A DNA stretch of 64,000 nucleotides from Thiothrix subterranea (lineage in GTDB: Bacteria; Pseudomonadota; Gammaproteobacteria; Thiotrichales; Thiotrichaceae). The notes under the pieces are model-generated. The model ran no database searches. It saw only the letters and a program-made list of their open reading frames with translations, and was not told the DNA's origin. The DNA lies in the NCBI RefSeq assembly GCF_016772315.1, contig NZ_CP053482.1:1054001-1118000 (forward strand). Reading direction: 5' to 3'. The first letter of the stretch is position 1. Every line of letters begins with the position of its first letter. The translations under genes and the position numbers were made by a program. Shown here piece after piece: positions 3,918 through 62,598 of the stretch.

Positions 3918-5534
3918 TTGTCTTTTTCAGAATTAGGCTTAAATCCAGAGTTTGCGGCTAAAATTGAAGCTGCCGGTTATGAGAATCCGACTGACTTACA
4001 AAAGCAGTTGATTCCTCTCATCGCCCACAATAAAAGTGTCATTGTGTGGACACAATCGGCTTCCGGCAAGACCGGCGCATTCCTGATTCCTGCCATCAAC
4101 TACGTGTTAACCAATCCGATTGAAGAGCAGCGCCACACCCGTGTACTGATCTTGACCTCGCGGCGCGACCGGGTGAATCAGATCAATTACACGATTAAAC
4201 GCTTGATGGGTGATGAACAGCAAATTCGTTCCGGTTTCATTGTCAGCGGTCGCCCTTATCAGCCGCAGATGCGTTTATTACGCCGCCCACTGGACTTAAT
4301 GATCGCCACGCCGGGACGTTTGAATGATCTGGTTGACAATAACAAAGCCGATTTTTCCAAGCTGGAAATGCTGGTCATTGATGACCTCAGCGCGATTTAC
4401 CACAAAGGTCTGCATGGCTTGGTAAACAAAATTCTCTCGGAACGCACCACTGCCTGCCCCGTCATTGCGTTTGTACGCCCGGAAAATGACATTACCGGCT
4501 ATGCGCGTGCCGTGTTAGCAGGTGCCGAAGAGCTGGAAGTCGATGATGACCGCAACCCGCTGTTGCTGATTCCACAAGTCGTGCATCTCGCAGACGATTA
4601 CACCCACAAAATTGCCCTGATGGATCATTTACTGGATGAGTTTTCCGGCGAACCTACCGTTATTTTCACGATTACCACCAAAGTTGCTAAAGCACTCGCC
4701 GAAAGCCTTGCGAATCACGGGCATACCGCCGAGGTTGCATCCGACCTTCCCGAATCCGAACGCAATGGCACTTCCGCCCCGATTCTGATCTATGCCGATC
4801 AAGACGGCTTGCACCCTAACCTGCAAGGCGCTGAACACATTATCAACTTCGAGCTGCCGCACAAGGTAGAAGATTACGAAGCACGTCTGCAAGGGCTTAG
4901 CCCAGAACGTGAAGAAGCCGTGATTGCCGTGGTATTACCGCGTGAACGCGACAACCTAAAATTGATTGAAACCTTTTTGGGTGATTCGATCGAACAATGC
5001 ACCTTGCCGGGTCTGGCGCCGCTGGAACACACCTCTGGCTTCACGCCATCCGTGCGTTCCCCTCGCAGCAACCGCAGCAATAGCGGCGGCGGACAACGCC
5101 AACACAGCGGCAACGGCGGCAATCAAGGCGAACGCGGACGTCCATCACAGAACCGTTCTTCCGGCGGCGCACCGCAAAACCGCCCCGCACATCAAGGGCA
5201 AGGCGGCGGGCGCAGCAACAACCCCAACCAGCAACAAAATGCGCCACGGCGTGACAACCGTCCTGCCACAGGTCAAGAACAATCGCCAGCCAATGCCGCT
5301 GATCGTCAACAACGCAAAGGCCCTTATGGTCGCCTAAACGGTGGCGCACAACGCAAGCGTGACGGCGGGCCGTACACCGGTGGCAGCAATCCAGCGCCAC
5401 GCCGCGAACAAGGCGGTTCTTACGAAATCGGCAGTTGGGAAAAACCCAATTACACGCCGCAAGACGAAAAGCCTAAAACCGATAAGCAAGTCGTTATCCG
5501 TTACAAGGAAAAACGCCGTATTTTGACGAAATAA
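3918..5534 (+). CDS. Degenerate DEAD-box RNA helicase-like protein with RG/N/Q-rich C-terminal tail
   Basis: A 538-residue protein starting at TTG, with a good Shine-Dalgarno (GGGGAG, 3904-3909) about nine bases upstream. It retains the Q-motif region (FSELGL...GYENPTDLQ), the P-loop core SASGKT (residues 47-52) and motif Ib ATPGRL, so the fold is a DEAD-box RecA pair. Key motifs are altered: DEAD is DDLS (about 155-158), SAT is not recognisable, and the motif VI arginine pattern is missing (DYEARLQGLSPER). Residues about 380-510 are low-complexity RG-, N- and Q-rich sequence typical of disordered RNA-binding tails. It may bind RNA without normal ATPase activity; this is inferred from the missing residues. 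Confidence 0.8.
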   Translation: MSFSELGLNPEFAAKIEAAGYENPTDLQKQLIPLIAHNKSVIVWTQSASGKTGAFLIPAINYVLTNPIEEQRHTRVLILTSRRDRVNQINYTIKRLMGDEQQIRSGFIVSGRPYQPQMRLLRRPLDLMIATPGRLNDLVDNNKADFSKLEMLVIDDLSAIYHKGLHGLVNKILSERTTACPVIAFVRPENDITGYARAVLAGAEELEVDDDRNPLLLIPQVVHLADDYTHKIALMDHLLDEFSGEPTVIFTITTKVAKALAESLANHGHTAEVASDLPESERNGTSAPILIYADQDGLHPNLQGAEHIINFELPHKVEDYEARLQGLSPEREEAVIAVVLPRERDNLKLIETFLGDSIEQCTLPGLAPLEHTSGFTPSVRSPRSNRSNSGGGQRQHSGNGGNQGERGRPSQNRSSGGAPQNRPAHQGQGGGRSNNPNQQQNAPRRDNRPATGQEQSPANAADRQQRKGPYGRLNGGAQRKRDGGPYTGGSNPAPRREQGGSYEIGSWEKPNYTPQDEKPKTDKQVVIRYKEKRRILTK

Positions 5535-5546
5535 AGTAGAACCCTC

Positions 5547-5750
5547 ATGCTGCAAGACACGGAAGAACTGCATCGCAAACTGGCAGAACTCACCCAAGAA
5601 CACCGCGAATTGGATGAAATGATTGCAGCATCGCTGCAAGAATCGAATACGGATCAGCTCAAAGTTTCGCGCCTGAAAAAGCGCAAACTGCTGTTAAAAG
5701 ACATGATTTCACGGATCAATAGCCAGTTGATTCCCGATTTAAACGCCTGA
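5547..5750 (+). CDS. DUF465 / YdcH-family small protein
   Basis: A 67-residue, highly charged, helical protein (MLQDTEELHRKLAELTQEHR) ending with the DUF465-like stretch SRLKKRKLLLKDMI. Family members are short coiled-coil proteins without assigned biochemical function. It lies 12 bases after the DEAD-box-like gene on the same strand, so they may share a transcript. Its end overlaps the tail of the convergent Nudix gene by 12 bases. Confidence 0.85.
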   Translation: MLQDTEELHRKLAELTQEHRELDEMIAASLQESNTDQLKVSRLKKRKLLLKDMISRINSQLIPDLNA

Positions 5751-6698
5751 CCACAAACTGCGGATGGCAGCTATGCCTTGCCCGCCATGTTGCCGAGCAG
5801 TTATTGCATGATCAGAGGTCATGCCACCGAGTGCATAAACCGGCAGATTGACGTTTTCCACCGTTGCGGCGAATGCTACCCACCCCAAATGGGCTTCACC
5901 CGGATGCGATAATGTCGGCAATACTGGCGAGAGAAACGCGAAATCCGCCCCCAACGCTGCCGCCTGCTGCAACTCTGCCGAGCCATGACAAGACGCCGAT
6001 AACCATTGCCCCGGCAATAAGGTGTCGCGCAAACCGGCTTCTGCTGTCAACAATTGCCGACTGGTTAAATGCAAACCATCTGCCTCCGCCAACATAACCG
6101 GCGGAGAATTCAACACAATCTTGGCACCAAACGCATGACTTAACTGGATAACCTCATGCGCCAAAGCCACGTACTCTGAAGCCGCCAACGTCTTTGCCCG
6201 TAATACCACCAAACGCACCCCAGCCTGCAAACATTGCTGCAACTGCTGCAAAAATTCGGTGGAATCGTGTGGCTCAGGGGTAATCAAACACTGGGCGGGC
6301 AAACGTGCCGCAGTAACAATCGGCGCATTCGCAGGCGGAAATTCCAATGCGGGCAATTGTTCTGCATCAAACCACGCCACGGGTTGACCTTCGCGCCCGT
6401 GAGCAGTGCCACTAAAGGCCGTCACTTCCCACACATCCAACAACACCGCCAGCTCAGGATACACGTGGCGAATCTTAATGAGCGGCTGTGCGTGTTGAAG
6501 CTGAATACCGAGTTCTTCCTCAAGCTCACGGCTTAAGGCGTGCAGCGGAATTTCGCCGGATTCGACTTTACCGCCGGGAAACTCCCACTTGCCGCCCTGA
6601 TGTTTATGGGCAGGGCGTTGCGCTAATAAAATCTTGCCCGCCGCGTCACGGATAACTGCCGCGACGACGTGCAAATACTTAGCTGCGGTATTCGGCAT
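5739..6698 (-). CDS. Nudix hydrolase (MutT-like) fused to a ThiE-like domain
   Basis: About 319 residues from the ATG at 6698. The N-terminal Nudix domain carries the full box (GGKVESGE...RELEEELGI) next to the MutT-like GGKWEFPGG. Residues about 150-319 form a TIM-barrel resembling thiamine-phosphate synthase ThiE (LVVLRAKTL...GADFAFLSPVLPT...VYALGGM). This MutT-ThiE fusion is known in gammaproteobacteria; the Nudix part is expected to sanitise oxidised nucleotides and the ThiE-like part is uncharacterised. An upstream in-frame start at 6758 lies deeper within argJ and is less likely; the chosen start still overlaps the argJ end by 20 bases. Confidence 0.88.
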   Translation of the reverse strand: MPNTAAKYLHVVAAVIRDAAGKILLAQRPAHKHQGGKWEFPGGKVESGEIPLHALSRELEEELGIQLQHAQPLIKIRHVYPELAVLLDVWEVTAFSGTAHGREGQPVAWFDAEQLPALEFPPANAPIVTAARLPAQCLITPEPHDSTEFLQQLQQCLQAGVRLVVLRAKTLAASEYVALAHEVIQLSHAFGAKIVLNSPPVMLAEADGLHLTSRQLLTAEAGLRDTLLPGQWLSASCHGSAELQQAAALGADFAFLSPVLPTLSHPGEAHLGWVAFAATVENVNLPVYALGGMTSDHAITARQHGGQGIAAIRSLWSGV

Positions 6699-7887
6699 TG
6701 ATTTTGACGTAATCGTAGGAAAAATCACACGTCCACGTGGTTGCCGCCGCTTCACCACGCCCTAAATGGATGCGAATAGGAATTTCATCACGCTTGGTTT
6801 CTGCCGCGCCCAATTCCTCGTAGTAAGTGGGAGCCGGTTCGCCGTTTTCGATCAGCAAGGTTTTTCCCAACCAAATACTGATGCGGCTGACATCCAAAGC
6901 GTCAACTTGGCTACGCCCAACAGCAGCAAGAATACGCCCCCAATTCGGGTCACTGGCAAACAAAGCCGTTTTAACCAATGGTGACAACGCAACCGTGTTA
7001 CCCACCACCCGCGCTTCGGCACGGGTTGCCGCCCCTTGCACCTCAATGCTGATGAATTTGGTAGCACCTTCGCCATCACGCACAATCGCTTGCGCCAAAT
7101 ACAGACAAATTTCCAGCAATGCTTGACGGAATGCGGGCAAACCATCGCCACCCACATACACCCCGGAACTGCCGGTTGCCATCACAATCAGGGAATCATT
7201 GGTTGACGTATCGCCATCCACCGTGATGCAGTTAAAGGTTTCTTCCACCACTTCATTCAGCAAGTCTTGCAGAATAGTCTTTTCAACCAATGCATCGGTT
7301 GCCACATACGCCAACATGGTGGCCATATTGGGGTGAATCATGCCCGCACCTTTGGCAATCCCGGTGATCGTGATGGTTTCGCCAAAGATTTGCACCTGAC
7401 GGCTGATGGCTTTCGCCACCGTATCGGTCGTCATAATGGTACGCGAGGCTTCCATCCAGCCCGCTGCATCCAGCTTAGCAAAAGCTTCCGGCAAGGCAGC
7501 AGTGATTTTATCCACCGGCAATTGCTGACCAATCACGCCGGTCGAAAACGGCAACACTTGCTCCGCCCAACACGCGCCCTGTTGCGCCACTTGCTCACAC
7601 GAAGCACGCGCTGCTTGCATTCCCTGCTCACCCGTTCCCGCATTCGCGTTACCGGCATTGATCAGCAAATAACGCGGATTAGAATGCAGCAAATTGTGAC
7701 GGCACACGTGCACCGGTGCGGCACAAAACGCATTGCGCGTGAATACCGCTGCCGTATGACTGCCCGGCTCCAACTCAATCAGCAACACATCGTTACGGTT
7801 TTTGTAACGAATGCCCGCATTGACCGATGCCAAGCGCACCCCAGCAATCGGCAATAAGGTATCAGGTGCCTGTAAATTCACTGCCAT
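6679..7887 (-). CDS. argJ: Bifunctional ornithine acetyltransferase / N-acetylglutamate synthase ArgJ
   Basis: A 402-residue protein with the ArgJ autoprocessing site KGAGMIHPNMATMLAY, where the chain is cut before the Thr that becomes the nucleophile. It also has VDGDTSTNDS and the C-terminal DPNWGRILAAVGRS region. ArgJ recycles the acetyl group from N-acetylornithine to glutamate in cyclic arginine synthesis. It sits between secA and the Nudix-ThiE gene on the same strand. Full family length. Confidence 0.96.
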   Translation of the reverse strand: MAVNLQAPDTLLPIAGVRLASVNAGIRYKNRNDVLLIELEPGSHTAAVFTRNAFCAAPVHVCRHNLLHSNPRYLLINAGNANAGTGEQGMQAARASCEQVAQQGACWAEQVLPFSTGVIGQQLPVDKITAALPEAFAKLDAAGWMEASRTIMTTDTVAKAISRQVQIFGETITITGIAKGAGMIHPNMATMLAYVATDALVEKTILQDLLNEVVEETFNCITVDGDTSTNDSLIVMATGSSGVYVGGDGLPAFRQALLEICLYLAQAIVRDGEGATKFISIEVQGAATRAEARVVGNTVALSPLVKTALFASDPNWGRILAAVGRSQVDALDVSRISIWLGKTLLIENGEPAPTYYEELGAAETKRDEIPIRIHLGRGEAAATTWTCDFSYDYVKINAEYRS

Positions 7888-38026: not shown

Positions 38027-38722
38027 ATGACCCTAACGAGTGACGAACTCCAACAGTTATTAAGGCGCTCAGCATTACTGGATGCGGCTCTGATACGTTT
38101 TGTACCTGCCCATTTTAAGGGCGTATCTGACCGCGTGGCTTCCAGCCGTATTATGTGCGGGGTCGGCTTTGAACACGCTGAGAGTGTCAAAATACTGATT
38201 ACTAACGATAACTTTACTTCAGCAATCAGCCTGTTACGGCTTCAGTATGAAGCACTGGTACGTGCGGTATGGCTGCAATACGCGGCGAGTGACAAGGTAA
38301 CACAGAGACTCATGGGGGAATTCACTCACGAAAAAGCCAAACAAGCCGATAGATTATCGATGATGACTCAGATGCTACAGGAACTGGAAGGCAAAGCGCC
38401 CTCGGATATAATGAACTTGCTGCTGCAATTCAAAGAGTATTCATGGAAACCCCTGAGTTCTTACGTACACGGCGGCATTCATGTATTAAACCGTCATAGC
38501 AAAGGCTATCCTCCTTTTTTGATTCATCAAGCGGTACGCGCCTCCAACAGTGTGTCTATTATCTTAGCCATGCACTTAGCGCAAATTTCTGGTGAACCTA
38601 AGCAGATGTTGCTGTTATCAACCCTGCAAGTCACATTTGCCGATTGTTTGCTGGAATCTCATGCGCAAACGGTGGCGAAACATCTCATCATTAAACCAGT
38701 CAAGCGCAACACGGAGCAGTAG
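38027..38722 (+). CDS. Helical protein of unknown function (DUF6988-like), upstream of the AAA-M41 gene
   Basis: 231 residues, mostly alpha-helical, soluble. Features include RIMCGVGFEHAESVKILI, LLRLQYEALVRAVWLQYAAS and SSYVHGGIHVLNRHSKG. Similar proteins annotated as abortive-infection-like or DUF6988 have this aromatic-rich helical layout, but I do not recognise a defined active site. It lies 32 bases before the protease-like gene on the same strand and may be its partner. A TATAAT at 37967-37972 lies 54 bases upstream. Confidence 0.6.
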   Translation: MTLTSDELQQLLRRSALLDAALIRFVPAHFKGVSDRVASSRIMCGVGFEHAESVKILITNDNFTSAISLLRLQYEALVRAVWLQYAASDKVTQRLMGEFTHEKAKQADRLSMMTQMLQELEGKAPSDIMNLLLQFKEYSWKPLSSYVHGGIHVLNRHSKGYPPFLIHQAVRASNSVSIILAMHLAQISGEPKQMLLLSTLQVTFADCLLESHAQTVAKHLIIKPVKRNTEQ

Positions 38723-38754: not shown

Positions 38755-40653
38755 ATGTTACAACTTGATAAAGCCTTGATTCACGCTCGCAAAGCCGAGT
38801 TAGAATCCACCAAACACGCCCTGAAACAGCATTTCGTGGGGATCGACCCGATCATCGACGAGCTGATGGACTGCATCCAAGTCTGGTATCTAATGCCGGA
38901 ATTGCTCAAGCGTCCCGTCATTGTGAACCTGTGGGGAATGACAGGGGTTGGCAAAACCGACTTAGTGCGCCAACTGGTCAAACACCTGCATTTTCAAGAT
39001 CGCTTTGCCGAAGTGGAACTTTCCAATATTGGGCAAACCTCGTGGAGTTCGTCCGTTTCCAGCGTGTTAGACGATTACGGTTTTCATAACGGCAAACCGT
39101 GCATTGTGTTATTTGATGAAATTCAGCGCTTTAACACCATTGATTCCAAAGGCGAACAGTTGCCGCAAACCAAATTCATGGACTTTTGGGAACTGTTATC
39201 CGACGGGCATTTGTCCAAAAAGCAAAAAGATGACCTCGACAGTTTTCTGCACGAATATTATCAGCGCGAACGCAATGCCCAACGCCGCCGCAGCAAAGGC
39301 GAAAAAGAGGACGAAGACGACAGCCCCGGTTACATCAGCACCTGGGATGCGGTGAATCTGAAAAAAGCGCTGAATCTGGACATGGAAGTGGTGGATATGC
39401 TCGACATTACCGAAGAGGAAATGGTCAGCATGATTCTTACCGCCAAGCGCAAAAAAGTGATTTACGAACCCATTAATCACACCCAAACGCTGATTCTGAT
39501 TTCGGGCAATTTGGATGACGCGTTTCACATGTCGCATCAAGCGGCGGAAGCGGATGTGGATGCGGATATTTTTCACGCCTTCACCACCAAAGTGACGCTG
39601 ATGAATATTAAAGACGCGCTGCTACGTAAGTTCCGCCCGGAACAAGTGGCTCGGTTTGGCAATATCCACCTCGTTTACCCCAGTTTGCGCAAACAGGATT
39701 TTCACACGCTGATTACGCGGGAAATCCAGCGGGTACAAACCGACACGTTTGAGCGTACCGGCATTCGTTTGGTGACGGATGTGAGCATGAACCAGTTGAT
39801 TTACCGTAATGGCGTATTTCCGGTGCAAGGGGTGCGCCCATTATTTTCCAGCGTGACCGATATTTTGGAAGTCAATTTGTCGCGCTTATTACTGCAAGCC
39901 CTCAGCGACGGTATTGACACCATTCACCTGAGCTATTCCGAAGAACGCCAAGCGATTGTGGCACGGTTAGGTGAGATCACCACAGTGGAACACCCGTATG
40001 TGGGGCGCATCGACAAAATTCGGCAGGACAATACCCAAGCATCCGTGGCGAATATCAGCGTGCATGAATCCGGTCATGCGGTGGCTTACATGGTGCTGTT
40101 CGGTTTGGTGCCGTTGCAATTGCAAAGCAAGGTTGCCAGCAGCTACGCGAGCGGTTTCACCTTCCCACACCAATTGCACCGCACACGGCGCACCTTGCTG
40201 GATATGATCAAGGTGTATCTGGCGGGCGGCATTGCGGAAGAATTGCTGTTTGGGCATTTGGAAGCATCGACCGGGCGTGAAAATGACCGCGAACGCGCCA
40301 CGGAATTGGCGATGGATTATGTGCGCCGTTACGGTTTCGACGATGAATTTCAAGCCACGTACACCATCGAAGATTACCCACACCGCATGAATACCGTGGT
40401 GACGGATATGGATGTGGAAAAAATGATGATGCGTCTGGTCAGCGAAACCAAGGAGTTACTGGGGCAATACGTGCATTGCTTACACGCCCTTTCCAAAGCA
40501 CTAACCGAAGCGGGTAAGCTGGAAACAGACCAAGTGGCGGCGATTGCGCAACAGTATGATGTTGCTGCTGAGATTAAGCCGGAAGGTCATTTGCACATTG
40601 CGGATTATGCGGCGCGGTTGCGGGAACCGTTGGTGTGGCGCGGGCGGCATTAA
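38755..40653 (+). CDS. AAA+ ATPase (ClpB D2-like) fused to an FtsH-type M41 metallopeptidase domain
   Basis: 632 residues. The AAA+ module has Walker A GMTGVGKT (61-68), Walker B IVLFDE (117-122), the HSP100-type FRPEQVARFG (293-302) and the small-domain sensor GVRPLFSSVTDILE (359-372), the pattern of ClpB second domains. A charged insert lies at about 160-195 (EKEDEDDS). Residues about 425-580 match the FtsH peptidase: HESGH (437-441), a hydrophobic AGGIAEELLFG helix and GRENDRERAT, whose Asp511 would be the third zinc ligand. There is no membrane helix, unlike FtsH. Probably a soluble ATP-dependent protease; substrates unknown. Confidence 0.85.
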   Translation: MLQLDKALIHARKAELESTKHALKQHFVGIDPIIDELMDCIQVWYLMPELLKRPVIVNLWGMTGVGKTDLVRQLVKHLHFQDRFAEVELSNIGQTSWSSSVSSVLDDYGFHNGKPCIVLFDEIQRFNTIDSKGEQLPQTKFMDFWELLSDGHLSKKQKDDLDSFLHEYYQRERNAQRRRSKGEKEDEDDSPGYISTWDAVNLKKALNLDMEVVDMLDITEEEMVSMILTAKRKKVIYEPINHTQTLILISGNLDDAFHMSHQAAEADVDADIFHAFTTKVTLMNIKDALLRKFRPEQVARFGNIHLVYPSLRKQDFHTLITREIQRVQTDTFERTGIRLVTDVSMNQLIYRNGVFPVQGVRPLFSSVTDILEVNLSRLLLQALSDGIDTIHLSYSEERQAIVARLGEITTVEHPYVGRIDKIRQDNTQASVANISVHESGHAVAYMVLFGLVPLQLQSKVASSYASGFTFPHQLHRTRRTLLDMIKVYLAGGIAEELLFGHLEASTGRENDRERATELAMDYVRRYGFDDEFQATYTIEDYPHRMNTVVTDMDVEKMMMRLVSETKELLGQYVHCLHALSKALTEAGKLETDQVAAIAQQYDVAAEIKPEGHLHIADYAARLREPLVWRGRH

Positions 40654-41647: not shown

Positions 41648-41914
41648 ATGAACCGACAAGGAAATGTCATTTTTTACCCCCCTAAACACAAAATTTGCAT
41701 TGAAGTGCATTTCGAAGATGAAACTTTCTGGCTCACTTAAAATCGCATGGCGGAACTGTTTGGGGGTCGAATCGAATACCATCACCTACCACCTGAAAGA
41801 AATCTTTGCCAACGGTGAGCTTGACGAAAATTCAACTACTCGAAAAATTCGAGCAGTTCAGCAAGAGAGCCAGTTGCAGGTTGCCGGTACAATAATTCGC
41901 GCGATAGACCATTG
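41648..41914 (+). pseudogene. Remnant of a RhuM-family gene
   Basis: Fragments in shifting frames match the RhuM N-terminus: VHFEDETFWLT, a stop (TAA) where Q or another codon is expected, MAELFG, then in another frame NGELDENSTTRKIRAVQQE. At least one in-frame stop and one frameshift are seen, and the gene ends before the KilA/Bro-like remainder. RhuM proteins are associated with mobile islands. No function expected. Confidence 0.7.
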
Positions 41915-41934
41915 AAGTCTTAGCAAATCTAATA

Positions 41935-42675
41935 TTAAATCAAACTCAATATTGCAATAGAACAATCGTCATGTGTTTTCTTAATGAAAAAATCTTTCAT
42001 TGCATTTGATAATGCGATTTGAACTTTTCGTTCACTTTCATTATCCAACCAACCAAATATTGTATTTATTGCAGGAGCGGGTAGTTTCGTCTTATTATCG
42101 TATAGGCTGCTAGAAGTACCATCTGTCATTACCATAAATCCGGTAGATTTACTTAACTCACCCTTATAAATGAAGAAGTTGTCAATAGCATCATTTTCAG
42201 TTATGAAAAAAGTTGTATTGCTATACTCTCCATTATGAGGATGAGAGAAAATAAAAGCCTCCTGTTCACTTCTTGATATGATTAAGCCATCACCTATGTG
42301 ACCAGCTATATATCTATTCGTTGCTTTTTCAATAACAACAAACACGAGTGTACATGAATAGTCATTAATATCATTTGAGGAAAATAATTTGTCTTTTCTT
42401 ATGTGTTTTATAATATGAGATCTAATTTTATCAGCAATTAATTTCTCGCTAGTTATATCGTAAAGTTCAGAAAAGTAACTACTAACATATCCAATAGATT
42501 GTTTGGCTGCTATTTTTGAACCAATTCCTGATAGCTTTTTGCTGCCTGCACCATCAGAAACTGCGATGCCAAGATGTTTTTTACCTTTATTTGTGTAAAC
42601 TGAATCTTGGCAAGGCATGTTACTAGAACTATGCCCTCTACCTATCATGATATTTTTGACTATTTTTATCTTCAT
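41935..42675 (-). CDS. PP2C-type protein phosphatase
   Basis: 246 residues with PP2C metal motifs: GRGHSSSNMPCQDS (substrate-facing start), AVSDGAGS (D40/G), IAGHIGDGLI and VMTDGTSS. It should remove phosphates from Ser/Thr residues. It begins three bases after the VWA gene stop and is the last of three AT-rich minus-strand genes (kinase, VWA, PP2C), so it probably counteracts the kinase. Confidence 0.85.
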   Translation of the reverse strand: MKIKIVKNIMIGRGHSSSNMPCQDSVYTNKGKKHLGIAVSDGAGSKKLSGIGSKIAAKQSIGYVSSYFSELYDITSEKLIADKIRSHIIKHIRKDKLFSSNDINDYSCTLVFVVIEKATNRYIAGHIGDGLIISRSEQEAFIFSHPHNGEYSNTTFFITENDAIDNFFIYKGELSKSTGFMVMTDGTSSSLYDNKTKLPAPAINTIFGWLDNESERKVQIALSNAMKDFFIKKTHDDCSIAILSLI

Positions 42676-42678
42676 TAT

Positions 42679-43353
42679 TTATATTTCACCCCAACTTTTA
42701 ATACCATCTGTATCAAGTTTTACTGAATCACCAACTGTTGATTGAGACACTCTAGAAACACTTTGGCTTAACCATTGAAAGAACTCTTTGAAATTCATTC
42801 CCTTAAGTTTTAATGCGGGTCTTTTGCCAGAAAATTTTGAAAGTTGAGTAAGATCAGCAGAATTGCCAATTCCAATAGGGAATATAACTAATTTCTTCTC
42901 GGATTCTAATGTACATGCTCGTTGACTTGCATTGCTTATATCATCTGTGGGAGAACCATCAGTCATAATTACTAACCAAGGTTGATAGTAATCTACGCCT
43001 GTTTTTCTATATTGTGATTTTCGATCTTCAAGTATACTTATCGCCATTGAAACAGCTTCTCCTAAAGGTGTAGTCCCACTTGCAATTAAATTGGGAATAA
43101 CTTGTCTATGAATAGAAGCAAAATCTAAAGCTACTTGAACTTGTGAGCCAAATGTGACAATAGATATATCAGCAGAATCTTGTGCAATGTCATCATCTTT
43201 TATCGCATCAAAAAACATGGAAACACCATTTTCTAATTCTCTGATGGGCTCCCCTGACATTGATCCACTAACATCCAGAACTAAGCAAATAGGAACTCTT
43301 GCTGTTGGATTGTCGGTAAGTTCTTCATATTTTAAAATTAGATCGTTATTCAT
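42679..43353 (-). CDS. TerY-like VWA-domain protein
   Basis: 224 residues, essentially one VWA domain with an intact metal site: LDVSGSMSGEP (27-37), SGTTPLGEAV and MTDGSPTDD. TerY proteins carry this domain and occur beside a PP2C and a kinase in tellurite-resistance-associated phosphorylation triads. AGGAG lies upstream of the ATG. No TerD or TerC gene is in the window. Confidence 0.85.
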   Translation of the reverse strand: MNNDLILKYEELTDNPTARVPICLVLDVSGSMSGEPIRELENGVSMFFDAIKDDDIAQDSADISIVTFGSQVQVALDFASIHRQVIPNLIASGTTPLGEAVSMAISILEDRKSQYRKTGVDYYQPWLVIMTDGSPTDDISNASQRACTLESEKKLVIFPIGIGNSADLTQLSKFSGKRPALKLKGMNFKEFFQWLSQSVSRVSQSTVGDSVKLDTDGIKSWGEI

Positions 43354-43362
43354 GATTTACTC

Positions 43363-45159
43363 CTATTTGAAAAAAAGATTAAGAATATTGCTAAGAAGAT
43401 TACTCGAATTAGAGTATGGGTTGTTTGATTTCTGATGTGGTGGTGTCTGTTGGTGTGTTGATACATTTATGTAAGGCTTTCTGATTTTATTATCGTTTTC
43501 TTTCTTAGAAGAACCCTGTATATTCCTTGCTCTGATTTCTATCAGACAATCCCCGCAAAGCATACTTTTTCCTTGTTTTTGACGATCTTTATATTTTTTT
43601 TCAGAAACCACATGAACTCTATCACATTTTGAGCAGTTTATATCAATTGGGTCAAGTATTTTTAATGTGTCAGGAAATAAAATATTACTTGCATGATTTT
43701 TGTTTAAAAGTTCGTAGTATTTTTTCATGACATTGATTAATTCTTCAATTGTATGTCGTTTGTTATCACTAAAGGTTTTATAAAAACACTCTTTTACTGA
43801 ATAGGGTAAGTTGCTCCAAATATTTCTCCATGGCCCTTCTGGTGCTTTTCCTGTGGATTTATCAGAAAAAGGATATGGAAATTGCATTGCTCTAATGTTT
43901 TTACTTTGTTCTTCGCCATCCTGTTGAGCATATGGAGGCTTTCCGGGTAATAACAACATAAATAACATGGTTGTAACAGCAAATAACTCATGTTCTTTCG
44001 TTCTTAAAAAATCAGCATAATTCTTTCCTTGTATTTCAGGAGCTGTGAAGTTGACTGTCCCTACTGGGCAAGGATAATTTTCTACTTGATAGCTATCTGT
44101 ATCAACAAAGTAAAGAATGCCGCGCTTGTTAATCAAAATGTTGTTTGGATTTATGTCGCCAATAATTATATTTAAATCATGTAGTTTTCTGACCATAAAC
44201 AAGAAATCCATGCACAGTTCAACAAGATTTTTTCTATCTAGATTTGGAAAATTTCTTAACAAAGCAGGTTTTGTCATTATTTGTGTTTGAATGGTCTTTC
44301 CATCTGCTTTAGGCATAATATAACCTAAAACTTCTCCTTTTTCATTTTTTATAAGCTCAATAGGCCAACAAACTCCATCAATAGCAATGTTTTTTGATGT
44401 CATTAATGTAAGCTTCTCTAATTTGTTAGTTGTTAGTTTATCTTTGTGGTATATTTTTGCTACAATGTTGGGTTCGTTTTTTATCTCGAAAATTTTCCCC
44501 TCACCTCCACTTTTTCCTTGTTTAGTTAATTGATAAATATTCCTGCTTTTTATTCCGATTACGTTTTCACCCACATTGGGCATATATCTTAAGGAAATTA
44601 AATGTCCATTGTTATTAGCTTTGACTCCTATTTTATAAGGCTCTACTTTAAGGGTGGGAGGTGATGAACTTCTCTGGTTATGGTTTTTCTGTTCTTTTTT
44701 TGGTGAATTATTCCAAAAATAACATTGAACATTCTCCAGCTTTGCTCTTGCGACAAAAGCGTTGTCCAAAGTTAAAACAACACCATTATAACTTTTTGCT
44801 GTCATGATGATTTTTAAGTCATTATCTAAACTTCTATTAGAAGGATTATTAAAATTGTTTCGTTGTATTAAATAAATTTCATGGCTGTGAAATTTTACTT
44901 TTGAAAGACTATCATCATTTACTAGACCAAAACCGTTTGGAAAAGACTTCATTTTATCAAAGTTACTATTTTTAATTTCCCGAAAAAATTTTCGCGCATT
45001 GGATTTGACTAATTCACTACTATTTTTACTATCTTTTAAATGATTTAATTCATCCAATACAATAGATGTGACAACAGGAATGCCATGATTTAATATAACT
45101 CTTTGAATAACATCAACTTCTTCTGCTAAAACAGATGTATCTAAAAATAAAAGTGTCAT
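43363..45159 (-). CDS. PIN nuclease - protein kinase - zinc ribbon fusion
   Basis: 598 residues. Residues 1-150 form a PhoH2/VapC4-like PIN domain with acidic residues in FLDTS (D7), LDELNHLK (E37), DNDLKII (D114) and TLDNAF (D132). Residues about 185-485 are a kinase fold: P-loop GKSGGEG (215-221), VAKIYH (K235), catalytic GDINPNN (D335) and metal FVDTDS (D353). Residues 509-538 have two CxxC pairs (CSKC, CGDC). Both catalytic sites look intact. First gene of the triad. The PIN fusion is unusual compared with typical TerY-P kinases as I know them. Very AT-rich, suggesting transfer. Confidence 0.85.
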   Translation of the reverse strand: MTLLFLDTSVLAEEVDVIQRVILNHGIPVVTSIVLDELNHLKDSKNSSELVKSNARKFFREIKNSNFDKMKSFPNGFGLVNDDSLSKVKFHSHEIYLIQRNNFNNPSNRSLDNDLKIIMTAKSYNGVVLTLDNAFVARAKLENVQCYFWNNSPKKEQKNHNQRSSSPPTLKVEPYKIGVKANNNGHLISLRYMPNVGENVIGIKSRNIYQLTKQGKSGGEGKIFEIKNEPNIVAKIYHKDKLTTNKLEKLTLMTSKNIAIDGVCWPIELIKNEKGEVLGYIMPKADGKTIQTQIMTKPALLRNFPNLDRKNLVELCMDFLFMVRKLHDLNIIIGDINPNNILINKRGILYFVDTDSYQVENYPCPVGTVNFTAPEIQGKNYADFLRTKEHELFAVTTMLFMLLLPGKPPYAQQDGEEQSKNIRAMQFPYPFSDKSTGKAPEGPWRNIWSNLPYSVKECFYKTFSDNKRHTIEELINVMKKYYELLNKNHASNILFPDTLKILDPIDINCSKCDRVHVVSEKKYKDRQKQGKSMLCGDCLIEIRARNIQGSSKKENDNKIRKPYINVSTHQQTPPHQKSNNPYSNSSNLLSNILNLFFK

Positions 45160-45356: not shown

Positions 45357-48300
45357 ATGCTGATCTTCCCCGGTAGCGTTGCCCTCTCCGATTTTCGCCG
45401 CAACAAGCTGTTGAGCGCCTTGCAAGCCATCGTGCCCACGATCACCGCTGTGCAAGCCGAATACGTCCATTTCGTGCGCAACAGCCGCGAACTGCACCCC
45501 GACGAACACGCCCAGTTGCAAGCGTTGCTGACCTACGAAGAAGTGCAAGGCAGCCACGCGTTCAGCGGCACATTGCTGCTCGTCACCCCGCGCAAAGGCA
45601 CGATTTCGCCTTGGTCAAGCAAAGCCAGCGACATCGCCCACAACTGCGGCTTGACGATGGTGGAACGCATCGAACGCGGCATTGCCTACGACATCCAAAC
45701 CACTGCCGCCCTGTCTGAAGCCGAGCGTCTCGCCATTGCCGCGCTGTTGCACGACCGCATGACCGAAATGGTACTGACCGACCTGCAAGATGCCGTCGTC
45801 CTGTTCAGCGAAGCCGAACCCGCCGCCTTACGCTACGTTGACATCAGCAATGACCCCAAAGCCGCGCTCGCCAAAGCCAACACCGACTGGGGCTTGGCGC
45901 TGTCAGCGGATGAAATCGACTACCTCGCGGAAAACTACGCCGAACTCCAGCGCAACCCCACCGACGTAGAGTTGATGATGTTCGCGCAAGCCAACTCCGA
46001 ACATTGCCGCCACAAAATCTTCAACGCCGACTGGATTATCGACGGCAAAGAACAGCCCAAATCGCTGTTTGCCATGATCCGCAACACCCACGCGCACGCG
46101 CCCGAAGGCATTCTTTCCGCCTACCATGACAACGCCTCCGTCATCGAAGGCCCGTTGGCAACGCGCTTTTTGACCGACGTAAAAACCGGCGAATACCACT
46201 ACACCAACGAACCCGTCCACATCCTCATGAAGGTGGAAACTCACAACCACCCCACCGCCATTTCCCCGTTTGCGGGTGCTGCAACAGGTTCGGGCGGCGA
46301 AATCCGCGATGAAGGCGCAACCGGCAACGGCTCGAAACCCAAGGCGGGCTTGAGCGGCTTCTCGGTATCCAATCTGCGCATCCCCGGCTACGCCCAGCCA
46401 TGGGAACACGATTTTGGCAAACCCGACCGCATCGTTTCCGCCCTCGACATTATGCTCGAAGGCCCTATTGGTGCCGCCGCGTTCAACAACGAATTCGGTC
46501 GCCCCAATATCACCGGCTATTTCCGCACCTTTGAAATGCAAGCCCCCGGCGCAAAAGGTACGGAACTGCGTGGCTACCACAAGCCGATCATGATTGCAGG
46601 CGGCATGGGCAATATCCGCGAAAACAACATCAATAAGAACCCGCTGCCTGAAGGCACACCGATCATCGTCCTCGGCGGCCCCGCCATGCTGATCGGTTTA
46701 GGCGGCGGTGCGGCTTCCTCAATGGCAAGCGGCACGAGTGCGGAAAACCTCGACTTCGCCTCTGTGCAGCGCGGCAACCCCGAAATGCAACGCCGTTGCC
46801 AAGAAGTCATCGACCGTTGCGTAGCCTTGGGCGCGGAAAACCCCATCCTCTCCATCCACGACGTAGGCGCTGGCGGTATTTCCAACGCCATCCCCGAAAT
46901 CGTCAACGATGCCGGACGCGGCGGACGCTTTGAACTCCGTGCCGTTCCCAACGCCGAACTCGGCATGGCACCAATGGAAATCTGGAGCAACGAAGCGCAA
47001 GAACGCTACGTTCTCGCCATTGCCGAAGACCGCCTCGACACCTTCCGCGCCCTGTGCGAACGCGAACGCGCCGTCTACGCCGTGGTCGGGAATGCTACGG
47101 TTGAACAACAATTGCTGGTTGGCGATTCCCTGTTTGACAACAATCCGGTGAATTTGCCGATGAACGTGCTGCTCGGCAAACCGCCGAAAATGCTGCGTGA
47201 CGTGCATCACCAAACTTTCCACAAGCCGGAAATCGACCTGAGCGGCATTGAGTTGCCGGAGGCGATTGAGCGCGTATTGCGCTTGCCGACTGTTGCCTCC
47301 AAGTCCTTCCTGATTACCATCGGCGACCGCACGGTAACGGGCATGGTGACCCGCGACCAAATGGTCGGAGCATGGCAAGTGCCGGTGGCGGATGTGGCGG
47401 TCACCTCCAGCGATTACACCACCAATTTCGGCGAAGCGATGGCAATGGGTGAACGCACCCCGATTGCGCTGGTGAATCCGGCAGCATCGGGGCGCATGGC
47501 GATTGGCGAAGCCCTCACCAATATTGCAGCGGCAGACATTGCCAATATCCGCAACATTCGTCTGTCCGCCAACTGGATGGCGGCGGCAGGCTATCACGGC
47601 GAAGATGCCGCGTTGTTTGACACCGTGAAAGCGGTCGGCGAAGAACTGTGCCCGCGTTTGGGTCTAGCAATTCCGGTTGGCAAAGACTCCCTGTCGATGA
47701 AAACCGTATGGCAGCAAGACGGCGAAAACCGCGAAATGATCGCGCCGCTTTCCTTGATCGTCACCGCGTTTTCGCCTGTGCAGGACATTCGCAAAACCCT
47801 GACTCCGGCATTGTGCAGCGACGTTGGCGATACCGACCTGATTCTGGTGGATCTCGGCAAAGGGCGTAACCGATTGGCAGCGTCTGCACTGGCGCAAGTC
47901 TACGGACAAGTCGGGCATCACGCGCCGGACGTGGATAACCCTGACGCGCTCAAAGCCTTCTTCGATACCGTGCAAGATTTACGTGGCGAAAACCTGATTT
48001 TGGCGTACCACGACCGTGCCGATGGCGGCTTGCTGGCAACACTGGCAGAAATGAGCTTTGCGGGGCATGTGGGCGTGACCGCTTGCATCGGGCAGGTGAG
48101 TGAGCAATTGCTGCCCGCGCTATTCAGCGAAGAACTCGGCGCGGTATTGCAAGTGCGCCATTGCGATACGGATGCGGTGTTGGAAGCGTTCCGCGAAGCT
48201 GGGCTGGCGCATTGCACTCATGTCATTGGCGAATTGAACGACAGCGACGAATTGGTGCTGACCTTTGCTAACAAAGAAGTGTACCGCGCTCCACGTGCTA

Positions 48301-52895: not shown

Positions 52896-55508
52896 ATGAG
52901 AATGGACAAACTCACCAGCAAGTTCCAACTCGCCCTGCAAGACGCGCAATCGCTCGCGTTAGGGCGTGATCACCAATTCATCGAACCCGCCCACTTAATG
53001 ATCGCACTGCTCGATCAAGAAGGCGGTTCGACACGCGGTTTGCTCACCAAAGCCGATGTCAATGCCAACCAATTGCGCTCCAAACTCGGCGAAGCCCTCG
53101 ACCGGATGTCATCCGTCTCCGGCGGCGATGCAGGCAGCGTCCACGTATCCAACGACCTCAGCAAACTGCTGAACGTTACCGACAAAATTGCCCAGCAACG
53201 CAAAGACCAATACATTTCCTCCGAACTCTTCATCCTCGCCGGACTGGAAGACAAAGGCACGCTCGGCAATCTTCTGCGTGAATGCGGCGCGACCAAAGGC
53301 GCGGTGGAAAAAGCCATCGAAGGGATGCGTGGCGGTCAAACCGTCAACGACCCCAACGCCGAAGACCAACGCCAAGCCCTCGACAAATACACCATCGACC
53401 TCACCGAACGTGCCGAACAGGGCAAGATCGACCCGATCATCGGGCGTGACGAAGAAATCCGCCGCATGGTGCAAATCCTGCAACGCCGCACCAAAAATAA
53501 CCCGGTGCTGATCGGCGAACCCGGCGTGGGTAAAACCGCACTGGTCGAAGGCTTGGCGCAACGCATCGTCAACGGCGAAGTCTCCGAAGGCATGAAAGGC
53601 AAACGCCTGCTCTCGCTCGACCTTGGCGCATTGCTCGCAGGCACAAAATACCGGGGTGACTTTGAAGAACGCCTCAAAGCCGTGCTCAACGACATCGCCA
53701 AAGCCAACGGCAATATCATCCTGTTCATCGACGAATTACACACGATGGTCGGCGCAGGCAAAGCCGACGGCGCGATGGACGCTGGCAACATGCTCAAGCC
53801 CGCCCTTGCTCGCGGCGAATTGCACTGCCTCGGCGCAACCACGCTCGACGAATACCGCCAATACATCGAAAAAGATGCCGCACTCGAACGCCGCTTCCAG
53901 AAAGTGCTGGTCGATGAACCAACCGTAGAAGACACCATCGCCATCCTGCGCGGCTTGCAGGAAAAATACGAAGTGCATCACGGCGTGGAAATCACCGACC
54001 CCGCGCTGGTCGCAGCCGCCACGCTGTCACACCGTTACATCACCGACCGCCAGTTGCCGGACAAAGCCATCGACTTGATTGACGAAGCCGCATCCCGCAT
54101 CCGCGTCGAAATCGACTCCAAGCCGGAAGTAATCGACAAGCTCGACCGCCGCCTGATCCAGCTCAAGATTGAGCGCGAAGCCTTGAAAAAGGAATCCGAC
54201 GACGCTTCCAAAAAGCGTCTTGCCGACTTGCAGGCTGAAATCGACCGTCTGGAAATCGAATCCGCCGATTTGGAAGAAATCTGGAAAAGCGAAAAAGCCG
54301 ACGTGCAAGGCACTTCCCACATCAAGGAAGCCCTCGACCAAGCGCGGCTCGAATTTGAAACCGCCCGACGTGCAGGCAATTTGCAACGCATGGCGGAACT
54401 GCAATACGGGCGCATCCCCGAACTCGAAAGCCAGTTGGCACAAGCCGACGATGCCGCCGCCCACACCGAATCCAAAGCACCCAAGTTGCTGAAAACCAAG
54501 GTGACGGAAGACGAAATTGCCGACATCGTGTCACGCTGGACAGGCATCCCGGTCAGCAAAATGCTCGAAGGCGAAAAGGACAAGCTACTGAAAATGGAAG
54601 AGGTGCTTGCTAAGCGCGTGATTGGGCAAACCGAAGCGGTGGTCGCGGTTTCCAACGCCATCCGCCGTGCGCGTGCCGGGCTTTCCGACCCTAATCGCCC
54701 CAGCGGTTCGTTCCTGTTCTTGGGGCCGACCGGTGTGGGTAAAACCGAACTCACCAAGGCGTTGGCGACCTTCCTGTTCGACACCGACGACGCGATGGTG
54801 CGGATTGATATGTCCGAATTCATGGAAAAGCATTCCGTCGCCCGCCTGATCGGTGCGCCTCCGGGTTACGTCGGCTATGAAGAAGGTGGCTATTTGACCG
54901 AAGCGGTGCGCCGCCGTCCGTATTCCGTGATCCTGTTGGACGAGGTGGAAAAAGCCCACCCCGACGTATTCAACGTGCTGCTGCAAGTGCTGGATGATGG
55001 GCGTTTGACCGACGGGCAAGGTCGCACCGTGGATTTCCGCAACACTGTGATCATCATGACCTCCAACCTCGGCTCGCACCTGATTCAGGAAATGGCGGGC
55101 GAAGCCAACTACGAGCGCATGAAAGCAGCGGTGATGGAAGTCGTCGGTACGCATTTCCGCCCTGAATTCATCAACCGGATTGACGAAACGGTGGTATTCC
55201 ATCCGCTGGATCAGGCAGAGATTCGCCAGATTGCGGATATTCAGCTTAATAACCTTCGTAAGCGGTTGGCGGCGCGGGATTTGGGGATTCAGATTACCGA
55301 TGCGGCGTTGGATTTGCTGGCAGAAGCGGGATTTGACCCGGTGTACGGGGCGCGTCCGTTGAAGCGGGCGATCCAGCAGCAGGTTGAGAATCCGCTGGCG
55401 CAGCAAATCCTTGGCGGCAAGTTTATGCCGGGGGATACGATTGCGGTGGGGGTGGAAGAGGGCAGGCTGACGTTTATGGCGTTGGTGGAGGCTGACGAAA
55501 CAGTATAA
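52896..55508 (+). CDS. clpB: ATP-dependent disaggregase ClpB
   Basis: 870 residues: N domain ([20 protein letters not shown]), AAA+ D1 with [14 protein letters not shown], coiled-coil middle domain (about 400-525), D2 with [14 protein letters not shown], and the C-terminal [18 protein letters not shown]. It resolves protein aggregates with DnaK. The ATG at 52896 follows AGGTAG and matches the E. coli N-terminus. Its 3' half is nearly duplicated at 60010-61301, and the last few codons (after LVEA) differ between the copies. Confidence 0.97.
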
Positions 55509-58581: not shown

Positions 58582-59991
58582 ATGACGCTCTATCAAGATA
58601 TTGCTAATAAAATCAATGACCATATCAATAATGGTATGTTTTTGCCTGGTTCGCGCTTGCCGGGTGTGCGCTGTCTTAGTCAGCAGTTTGGAGTTAGCGT
58701 TTCGACAATTGTGCAAGCCCAGCAACAACTGGAGAGCCGTGGTCTGCTTGAGGCTCGACCACGTTCAGGTTACTACGTTTGCACGAATCCGTGGCTGAAG
58801 CTGGAATTACCGCTACCTTCAAAGCCGGAATTGAAACCTGCTTTTGTCAGTGGCCAAGAATTGGTGTTACAACTTACTCATCTTGCTAACAAGTCAGATT
58901 TCGTGCGTTTAGGTGCGGCAGTGCCGGATATTTCCTTCATGCCGATACGTGCATTGCAAGGCAGTCTTAGCAAAATTGTTCGTCGTTATGAACAATTGAA
59001 TGCCAATTATGCTTTCCCAACAGGGATACCGGAGTTAAGGGGGCAGATAGCCCGTCGTATGTATCTTACGGGAGCTACTGTTGAGCCAGATGAGGTGCTT
59101 ATCACTAATGGTTGCCAAGAATCATTAATGTTGGCACTTCAAACTGTGGCTAAATCGGGAGACATTATTGCCATCGAATCGCCAACCTTTTACGGTATAT
59201 TACAAGTAATTGAGGCTATGGGGATGAAAGCGTTGGAAATCCCTACTGATCCACAAGAAGGTCTTAGTCTCGCAGCTCTTGAATTGGCATTGGAGCAATG
59301 GCCTGTGAAGGCTTGTGTGCTAACACCTAATTTCAGCAATCCGCTAGGTAGTTTAATGCCTGACAATAAGAAACAGCAATTGATAGCACTAGCTCATCGT
59401 CATGGATTATTATTGATTGAGGATGATATTTATGGTGATCTTGGGTTTAGTGGTAAACGCCCATGTAGTTTATTCAGTTTTTCTGAAAGAAATGATGGCA
59501 ATGTAATTTATTGTTCTTCATTTTCGAAAACCATCTCTCAAGGTTTGCGGGTAGGATGGATGGTATTGCCACATCGTTATTTTAAAAAAGCTGAATATTT
59601 GAAATATGTAAACAATCTTGCTACGCCAAGTATTCCTCAATTAATGGTTGTGGATTTCTTAACGCAAAATGGATATGATCGCCATTTGAGACAAGTGCAA
59701 ATACGATATTCAAGACAAATTAGTCTATTCACCCATGCCATCAGTAAATATTTTCCGGCTGGGACACGAGTATCGCAACCTCAAGGAGGATTCGTTCTTT
59801 GGGTGGAGCTATCAGAGGATATTGATACTTTGCAACTTAGTCATCATATGTTGAAGCATAATATAAGTATTGCCCCCGGACAAATATTTTCCGCAACACA
59901 AAAGTATCGTAATTGTATTCGCTTGAACTGTGCTAAATCGTGGTCAGCAGAATTGGAAAAATCATTAATTTTGTTGGGAAAGGCAATCTGA
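58582..59991 (+). CDS. MocR-type regulator: GntR DNA-binding domain fused to an aminotransferase fold
   Basis: About 469 residues from the ATG at 58582. Residues 1-70 are a GntR winged helix ([20 protein letters not shown]...ARPRSGYYV). The rest is a fold-type-I PLP domain with [26 protein letters not shown] and the cofactor lysine in [16 protein letters not shown]. Such proteins sense PLP or amino acids and control divergent genes. A start at TTG 58576 is also possible. Confidence 0.9.
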
Positions 59992-60009
59992 ATTATTTTC
60001 CAATGCATA

Positions 60010-61310
<1,301 letters not shown>

Positions 61311-61613: not shown

Positions 61614-62138
61614 TTAGTAGTTTTTGATTCGCATGGCAGTGCGTAAATTGTGCAAACCACAAGCGATTTCCATCACTAAATCATCAAAATCTTCCACGTA
61701 GTTGCGGAAAATATCTTTGACGCACCGACACCGTTTGATACCGCTGTTCACATGTTCAATGACCACCCGAATGCTAGAAATGGCACGATTATGCGCTTTA
61801 TCCTTATCACTCAAGGGTTTACCTCGTGGCTTTTTCTTGGGTTGGTGGACAACTGCCCCGTCACCCGAATTATGCCCCAGATAGCCCAAATCCCGGTAAA
61901 TCTCATACCCTTCTGGCACTTTCACGCCTTCCTCATCCGCGATACGTTTGTCATGGTCTTTGCCGCGTCGTGTTTCTCCCAAGTATTTGATTTCACGATC
62001 TTCTAAGCCTGCTATTATGTTATTCTTCACCGAATGGAATTTTTTTTCCACTGTAGTATTCCTCCTGAACCCCAAAGTCAGTCGGACGTTGGATACGGCG
62101 TTCTGTCGCATCCAAGCCCAGCGCTTGCGGCATTTCAT
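61614..62138 (-). CDS. IS5-family transposase, frame B (C-terminal part)
   Basis: It supplies the remaining catalytic residues: Asp in YRDLGYLGHNSG and Glu in VIEHVNSGIKR, followed by FDDLVMEIACGLHNLR. The meaningful part begins at the A8 tract (VEKKFHSVKNN). Together with frame A it would make a protein of about 300 residues. Confidence 0.85.
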   Translation of the reverse strand: MKCRKRWAWMRQNAVSNVRLTLGFRRNTTVEKKFHSVKNNIIAGLEDREIKYLGETRRGKDHDKRIADEEGVKVPEGYEIYRDLGYLGHNSGDGAVVHQPKKKPRGKPLSDKDKAHNRAISSIRVVIEHVNSGIKRCRCVKDIFRNYVEDFDDLVMEIACGLHNLRTAMRIKNY

Positions 62139-62520
62139 GCGAAAGGCGTTCCAATACCTCTTCGGGGAGTCTGGCCGGGGAATGTCCCATGCTTTTTAAG
62201 CTCGACTGCAAAACGGGACACAGGCGATGTATCCACCGATTGGCTAACCCTTGGGACATATTGAAGGAGTAGCCCAACACTTCTTGCAGTGGGTAAGTCT
62301 TCAAATAATACAGAATAAAGAACAACTTATCTTCGATCGTTGTCAGGTTGCCGGGGCGACCTCGCTTCGTTTCACTCTCATGACCATCAACAATCAACTG
62401 CGCCGTGTATGCCCGTTGAAAATGGGGCAACAGTTTGGTGAATTCACCCAGATCTATGCCTGTCATGGCGCGGAAGGTTTTGCTCTTGCCTTTGAGCGCA
62501 TGGTAGCTGTACTCTGTCAT
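62020..62520 (-). CDS. IS5-family transposase, frame A
   Basis: About 166 residues from the ATG at 62520: N-terminal helix-turn-helix region (LQEVLGYSFNMSQGLANRW) and the first catalytic Asp in LGLDATERRIQRP. The frame runs out after an A8 tract (minus strand, 62047-62040), where a +1 shift, or loss of one A by polymerase slippage, would enter frame B. It overlaps frame B by about 119 bases. Confidence 0.85.
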   Translation of the reverse strand: MTEYSYHALKGKSKTFRAMTGIDLGEFTKLLPHFQRAYTAQLIVDGHESETKRGRPGNLTTIEDKLFFILYYLKTYPLQEVLGYSFNMSQGLANRWIHRLCPVLQSSLKSMGHSPARLPEEVLERLSHEMPQALGLDATERRIQRPTDFGVQEEYYSGKKIPFGEE

Positions 62521-62598
62521 GGGTGTTCCGTTCCCTTGGTGAAAATGATGATCATAGGTTGTAGCGCATTCCCGTTGATTTTTCACATGATTTGTTGA

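Follow-up and report, generated by a model that had tools for sequence, protein, structure and literature searches.

The gene at positions 38755..40653 of the window, the whole stretch of 64,000 nucleotides of Thiothrix subterranea DNA that was analysed, encodes an HSP100-type AAA+ motor fused to an M41 zinc peptidase in a single chain of 632 amino acids. Most probably the protein works in the cytosol as a hexameric, ATP-dependent zinc protease. With somewhat more reserve, we favour the reading that it represents an unrecognised bacterial AAA+ protease lineage apart from FtsH, Lon, ClpAP/CP, ClpXP and HslUV, in which the M41 ring acquired a motor for a second time, now from the HCLR/HSP100 side. 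Such a lineage would be soluble, would have spread across phyla (Bacteroidota, Cyanobacteria, Thiotrichaceae, large viruses) and would carry in its pre-sensor-1 hairpin an insert of its own for handling substrates.

Gene and domain organization

The gene is complete, as judged from its ORF, its Pfam matches and its relatives, and lies on the plus strand, as do all the features of the protein described here. The AAA+ large subdomain (residues 1-309; 38755..39681) was delimited by hhalign to ClpB/ClpA-type D2 and by the structure model. It contains the Walker A motif GMTGVGKT (residues 61-68; 38935..38958), the Walker B motif IVLFDE (residues 117-122; 39103..39120), a helical insert of ~85 residues at the position of the pre-sensor-1 hairpin (residues 154-239; 39214..39471), sensor 1 Asn252 (39508..39510) and the arginine finger Arg300 (39652..39654) in FRPEQVARFG (residues 293-302), a region aligned by hhalign with its ClpB counterpart. 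The small (lid) subdomain, ClpB_D2-small, follows at residues 310-397 (39682..39945; Pfam PF10431 and lid profile) and carries sensor 2 Arg361 (39835-39837) in GVRPL (residues 359-363). The M41 zinc peptidase domain (residues 426-606; 40030..40572), placed by Pfam PF01434, hhalign and a fold match to AFG3L2, includes the zinc-binding and catalytic motif HESGH (residues 437-441; 40063..40077) and the third zinc ligand Asp511 (40285..40287), which aligns with the FtsH ligand position.

Pfam recognizes a single AAA module in the protein. Peptidase_M41 (residues 432-595, E 1.2e-17) passes its cut-off, and so do ClpB_D2-small (residues 311-391, 24.5 bits against a cut-off of 21.9) and AAA PF00004 (30.9 bits against 21.2); AAA_2, with 24.4 bits, is under its 27-bit cut-off. 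The NCBIfam matches, the best being FtsH and ClpB, are all partial and far under the cut-offs (56.6 bits against 600 for FtsH_fam, TIGR01241; 40.2 against 1232 for the curated ClpB model), and therefore these models leave the protein unnamed. No membrane helix was found by hydropathy, the best 19-residue mean being 1.33 compared with 2.42 in the FtsH of the same genome. Among 99 relatives, five reach a hydropathy of at least 1.6 (best 1.70), and all five peaks are at position 372 or beyond, within folded domains.

The earlier note on this DNA had described a ClpB-D2-like HSP100 module followed by an M41 peptidase, with no membrane helix. This description is borne out by Pfam, by profile-profile comparison and by hydropathy, and the motifs that it quoted (GMTGVGKT, FRPEQVARFG, GVRPL, HESGH and D511) all lie where it had placed them.

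Affiliation of the AAA+ half

Judged by its sequence, the AAA+ half is a member of the HCLR clade, of the ClpA/B/C-D2 type, an assignment which combines end-to-end homology, the sensor 2 Arg and the D2-small lid. In profile-profile comparisons it matched ClpB/ClpA-type D2 (reference set n=27) at 99.1% with E 1.9e-18 over residues 10-397, which is end to end, whereas FtsH AAA (n=25) was matched at 74% with E 2.8e-5 over residues 54-124 only, around the P-loop. The matches to the other sets were 73.5% for ClpB-type D1 (n=25), 79% for ClpX (n=12; residues 284-381) and 95.7% for the Lon-like set (residues 14-136), the latter consisting of two rows named by eye. The large subdomain alone gave 97.3% to ClpB/ClpA-type D2 over residues 10-158 (hhalign), and the lid profile gave 95.6% to the same set compared with less than 1% to the FtsH-AAA, ClpX, Lon and D1 sets.

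Similar results were obtained against proteins of the same genome, using the ORFs of 44 loci with AAA+ or FtsH matches plus the ClpB of the window. The profile of the AAA+ half placed ClpB first (E about 7e-11, in this small set), followed by a ClpA-like and two Lon-like proteins, and the FtsH of the own genome was not listed at E 0.01. In a PDB sequence search with the family profile, residues 285-400 matched ClpB, ClpC and Hsp104, and the P-loop region matched ClpE and ClpA; the region 29-155 also matched Msp1 (E 9e-7), which we take to be a classic AAA protein. The AAA region of FtsH itself contributes between -0.3 and 2.6 bits in the printed family-profile alignments. At E 0.01, Pfam detected AAA in 75, AAA_2 in 67 and ClpB_D2-small in 66 of the 78 members scanned.

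The classic AAA clade is described as being without the sensor 2 Arg (PMC5039278). Unlike that clade, the present family has Arg361 in all of its 99 distinct relatives. The earlier note had regarded a first half of the FtsH AAA clade as the outcome that would speak against its reading; the AAA+ half goes with ClpB/ClpA-type D2.

Predicted fold and the M41 half

A structure model based on 11 close relatives (pLDDT 59.5) was discarded, and a model based on 78 relatives, with pLDDT 87.1 and pTM 0.77, was used instead. The structure prediction of both halves, which the earlier note had called for, gave a ClpB/ClpA-type motor fold and an AFG3L2-like peptidase fold. In the structural comparison, residues about 1-415 of the model match Skd3, ClpC, ClpA and ClpB with Z 20-22.6, and the AAA+ only construct of Skd3 is the top row, tied with the rows below it (Z 22.6, rmsd 3.0, 298 residues). 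Residues 423-609 match AFG3L2 with Z 20.1 and rmsd 2.6 over 181 residues. One FtsH model reached Z 20.3 over residues 15-601, but with an rmsd of 7.1. When the Foldseek results are ordered by E-value FtsH chains come on top, but the overall fit is poor, with a query TM of 0.28-0.38 and rmsd >10 for ranks 1-18; this order can be explained by the fact that FtsH chains span both domain types.

As far as the alignments can tell, the protease half is an FtsH-type M41 peptidase with HExxH and an Asp ligand. It matched FtsH M41 at 99.8% (E 3.5e-30) in the profile-profile comparison, and in the same-genome test FtsH was the only match apart from the query itself (E 3.9e-25). The M41 region also matches FtsH and Yme1 in the PDB sequence search, and in the family profile the position of D511 aligns with the D of FtsH 'TGAENDLQRAT'. 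The earlier note had named M41 zinc residues that do not cluster in a model as a further outcome against its reading; on this point the evidence consists of the superposition on AFG3L2 and the alignment of the ligands with those of FtsH. M41 was found by Pfam in 78 of the 78 members scanned, though the patterns used to scan for them sat in the AAA half.

Insert at the pre-sensor-1 hairpin and pore loop

According to hhalign, the insert sits between DGRLTDGQG and RTVDFRN of ClpB D2. The residues of the ClpB hairpin, an element that lies between alpha3 and beta4 in the HCLR clade, align on either side of it, and in the model two-residue strand marks are present at 152-153 and 240-241. Between them the model has helices at residues 161-180, 196-206, 212-215 and 220-233, and across the 99 relatives this stretch is 85-123 residues long. 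If substrates are docked or gated anywhere in particular, this would most likely happen at the insert, which may replace the N-terminal or membrane parts used by other AAA+ proteases.

The GYVG pore loop of ClpB is missing from the window protein and the hhalign alignment is ambiguous at this place, so Trp97 as the pore residue is a guess. All 87 cellular members have W, Y or F at its position, which is aromatic in only 4 of 12 viral members.

Conservation, distribution and phylogeny

The search for other HSP100-M41 fusions suggested in the earlier note returned 99 distinct relatives, this being the number left from 109 family loci (numbered with the prefix L) after identical proteins were removed. 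Two FtsH loci, L002 and L013, had been excluded beforehand; four of the 109 loci are second copies of genomes already counted and eight have <800 bases of upstream flank. Residues K67, D121, N252, R300, R361, H437, E438, H441 and D511 are invariant in all the 99 distinct relatives, and both E122 and T68 are kept in 98. As both sets of catalytic residues are present in 99 distinct relatives, the architecture is not a product of chance. Moreover the gene is under strongly purifying selection, as seen in two near relatives: 63 codons are silent and 3 residue-changing in the comparison with L003 (dN/dS 0.012), and 68 and 9, respectively, in that with L004 (dN/dS 0.037).

The most divergent of the relatives on putatively viral contigs (L104 at 4983-7094, with the same protein on L105-L107; L109; L111) are 24-27% identical. 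They keep all the zinc ligands and the counted motor residues, the exceptions being Asp for Glu122 and Ser for Thr68 in L111.

A scan of species genomes, in which members can be missed since it requires exact peptide patterns, gave 145 stretches with a tblastn match. Among the best 80 of the 145, which were examined, carriers were found in Thiothrix, Thiofilum, Methylophaga MAGs, many Bacteroidota and Cyanobacteria. MAGs with the labels Acidobacteria and actinobacterium were also among them, labels for which binning may be responsible. Cultured carriers include Thiothrix lacustris, Chryseobacterium, Arcicella aurantiaca and Neolewinella lacunae. Closer to the window, 57 genomes (its own included) were compared, and full-length copies are present in 8/16 genomes of the genus, 3/20 of other genera of the family and 0/21 of other families. 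Class-wide, three of 369 genomes have a match at E <= 1e-30, all of them from the family of the window.

In a tree made by a quick method and rooted on the viral rows, whose branches are long, the cellular members form a clade separate from the viral ones. The Thiotrichaceae clade (8 rows, starred) joins 19 Bacteroidota rows with a support of 86, which is not starred. This suggests, without proving it, a transfer linking the Thiotrichaceae clade and the Bacteroidota group.

Genome neighbourhood

No neighbour recurs across all the lineages in the loci examined, and most of those that do recur belong to a single genus or clade. The protease gene thus acts as an independent unit that takes up places next to ordinary genes of the chromosome. 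Several of the gene names used in this work (hisA/F/E, tatA/C, FabH/FabD-like, ClpA-like, Lon-like, sirtuin-like, methyltransferase-like, purL and transposase) were given by eye and are what we take these genes to be.

The protease gene directly follows a hisF-like gene in L007, L008, L011, L012 and L021, while a 173-aa gene lies between the two in L009 and a methyltransferase-like gene in L010. A hisE-like gene comes next in six of these seven loci, L011 being the exception. In these relatives the protease gene looks to be in or beside a his-type operon; the hisF-hisE site of the genome of the window carries no protease copy. In that genome and in L003-L006 the gene lies near an EamA-type transporter gene. 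An HflX-like GTPase gene adjoins it in six Arcicella-group loci (the name HflX is our presumption by eye, the GTPase domains come from Pfam), and genes that look like those of fatty-acid synthesis do so in Chamaesiphon. The gene inserted between hisF and the protease in L010, in a genome of the genus of the window, appears by eye to be DNA cytosine methyltransferase-like (L010:1-1399).

The earlier note had placed the gene at the edge of an accessory island, which holds in part. L001, L003 and L004 differ downstream of the gene, and L005 and L006 share another gene there, but the seven relatives with the gene in or beside a his-type operon do not fit this description.

Other features of the window were recorded. 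A short ORF at 41664-41915 (plus strand) is probably a decayed remnant, since over 46 residues it shares 85% identity with a stretch of the 180-aa protein encoded directly downstream of the protease in L004. A cluster at 41935-45159 (minus strand), encoding a PP2C phosphatase, a VWA protein and a kinase that begins with a PIN-type domain, lies between the protease gene and what looks by eye like purL, at 45357. Further on, a second, partial ClpB is encoded by a 456-aa ORF at 59940-61310 (plus strand). It repeats residues 435-866 of the ClpB of the window (52896-55508, plus strand) with 427/432 identities behind a new 23-residue start, and it therefore comprises only part of the middle region and D2. 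Transposase-like ORFs (by eye) are located downstream of it, at 61614-62586.

Proposed function and alternative explanations

An intact AAA+ motor fused to an intact M41 domain is expected to hexamerise, thread and cleave. In the window protein six subunits would form an HSP100-D2-type (HCLR-clade) AAA+ motor ring stacked on an M41 peptidase ring. An aromatic pore residue, probably Trp97, would let the motor take hold of unfolded or tagged chains, with the helical insert at the pre-sensor-1 hairpin docking the substrate or gating its entry. ATP hydrolysis, involving Walker A and B, sensor 1, the Arg finger and sensor 2, would then thread these chains and deliver them to the zinc site (His437/Glu438/His441/Asp511) for proteolysis. 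The genome of the window also encodes FtsH and ClpX (curated models) and ClpB, plus ClpA-like and Lon-like proteins recognized by eye, and the fusion protease therefore adds to them, presumably as an additional quality-control or regulatory protease.

The patchy distribution of the gene (8/16, 3/20 and 0/21) is easier to reconcile with a specialised client than with general quality control, and the protein has no separate N-terminal substrate domain. Both observations fit a processing enzyme that unfolds and clips one or few partner proteins, its motor being mainly a remodeller; m-AAA, for example, processes some of its substrates by clipping. Nevertheless the loci offer no constant neighbour as a possible client, and this explanation, although it deserves consideration, is unlikely.

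A little less probable is that clade-specific membrane proteins recruit the soluble protease to membrane-associated substrates, like those of FtsH. In 24 of 24 Chryseobacterium loci the called ORF is immediately preceded, on the same strand and at a distance of 0-15 bases, by a DUF4407 gene (e.g. L067:3847-4944), the assignment coming from a Pfam run on one of the 24, and no DUF4407 was found near the protease in the other family loci at E 1e-10. In addition, a SPFH/Band_7-type gene is near the protease in six loci: in four of them, from one Saprospiraceae-type clade, it lies 126-246 bases upstream, and in the other two, L011 and L097, it lies 612 bases and 2.5 kb downstream, respectively. However, the loci with DUF4407, like four of the six with SPFH, come from related genomes and may reflect plain synteny, and the neighbours in Thiotrichaceae, Chamaesiphon and Arcicella are mostly of biosynthetic or GTPase type. 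As a general rule, an HflKC/SPFH link was rejected (six loci, four of them of one clade).

The presence of relatives on 18 IMG/VR contigs, which are putatively viral, raises the question of a phage-derived or anti-phage protein; these relatives are more distant and comprise 12 distinct forms, with 24-38% identity to the window protein. This origin or role is improbable. No match over 80% of the window protein was found in 50,697 named phage records or in 72,556 plasmids, where the partial matches cover 33% at most, in or into the M41 region, and are mostly annotated as FtsH or unannotated. PHROGs gave two partial matches, one in the lid region, to an ATP-dependent protease, and one in the M41 region, to a family without a known function, and PADLOC gave only partial matches in the P-loop region (best 29.4 bits, E 1.1e-7, residues 6-94). 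Moreover the cellular members form their own clade and are often located beside biosynthetic genes.

Loss of the membrane anchor by an ordinary paralogue of FtsH would account for the FtsH-type M41 half, for the passing PF00004 score and for the whole-chain Foldseek order. It would not account for an AAA half that matches ClpB/ClpA-type D2 along its whole length and FtsH over residues 54-124 only, for Arg361 in 99/99 relatives, a feature missing in the classic clade according to PMC5039278, or for an FtsH_fam score of 56.6 bits against 600, and we give it hardly any credence. The claim of the earlier note that the architecture is distinct from that of FtsH thus withstands the evidence from the AAA half, the sensor 2 Arg, the missing anchor and the missed TIGR01241 model.

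The neighbouring ORF at 38027..38722 (plus strand) encodes a 231-aa DUF6988 protein (Pfam, E 1.4e-60), which strongly matches the PADLOC candidate family PDC-S52 and has a weak HEPN_AbiV match under the cut-off. The earlier note had paired it with the protease across 32 bases, a spacing that is correct, and had proposed it as an adaptor, sensor or substrate that might always accompany the fusion, for which the loci give no support: DUF6988 occurs in 3/109 of them (L001, L003 and L005), all in the genus of the window. A module of two genes, in which DUF6988 would serve the protease as adaptor, sensor or defence partner, is suggested by the spacing and by the PADLOC candidate status but is also highly improbable in view of L004 and L006, close relatives with the protease at the same location and no DUF6988. 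DUF6988 was consequently rejected as a partner and is placed outside the protease system.

Comparison with known systems

According to a review, the motors of these proteases belong to two clades, FtsH to the classic one and Clp-D2, ClpX/HslU and Lon to HCLR (PMC7226402). A conserved soluble protein crossing both motor clades would show that a protease ring can change its motor clade. No published description of an HSP100-M41 fusion was found in a literature search based in part on partial texts and covering subscription journals poorly, which makes it weak evidence of absence. Both modules are known; it is their pairing, conserved in many bacteria, for which no description was found. If the proposed lineage is real, it adds a route of bacterial proteolysis currently missed by family models, and as a natural chimera it can be used to ask which features of a protease ring its motor has to match. 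As cultured carriers exist, deletion and trapping experiments are feasible.

With FtsH, m-AAA and i-AAA (Pfam M41, TIGR01241) the window protein shares a single chain with AAA+ followed by M41, the aligned HExxH and Asp ligand and a peptidase fold matching that of AFG3L2. FtsH is described as membrane-anchored (PMC9020784), whereas the window protein is without a transmembrane anchor, has a motor of the HCLR/HSP100 type with a sensor 2 Arg and misses the FtsH_fam cut-off by a factor of ten. The D2 modules of ClpA, ClpB and ClpC (HCLR) resemble it in the whole AAA module, the D2-small lid, the Arg finger, sensor 2 and the fold (Z 20-22). Unlike them, it has no D1, N domain, middle domain or GYVG pore loop, carries the helical insert at pre-sensor 1, and has its protease fused instead of a separate ClpP. 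Skd3 (human CLPB), whose AAA+ only construct is its top structural row, has ankyrin repeats and no protease domain. Finally, Lon also combines an HCLR motor and a peptidase in one soluble chain and gives a weaker profile match to the motor of the window protein, but its peptidase is of the Ser/Lys type, whereas that of the window protein is M41.
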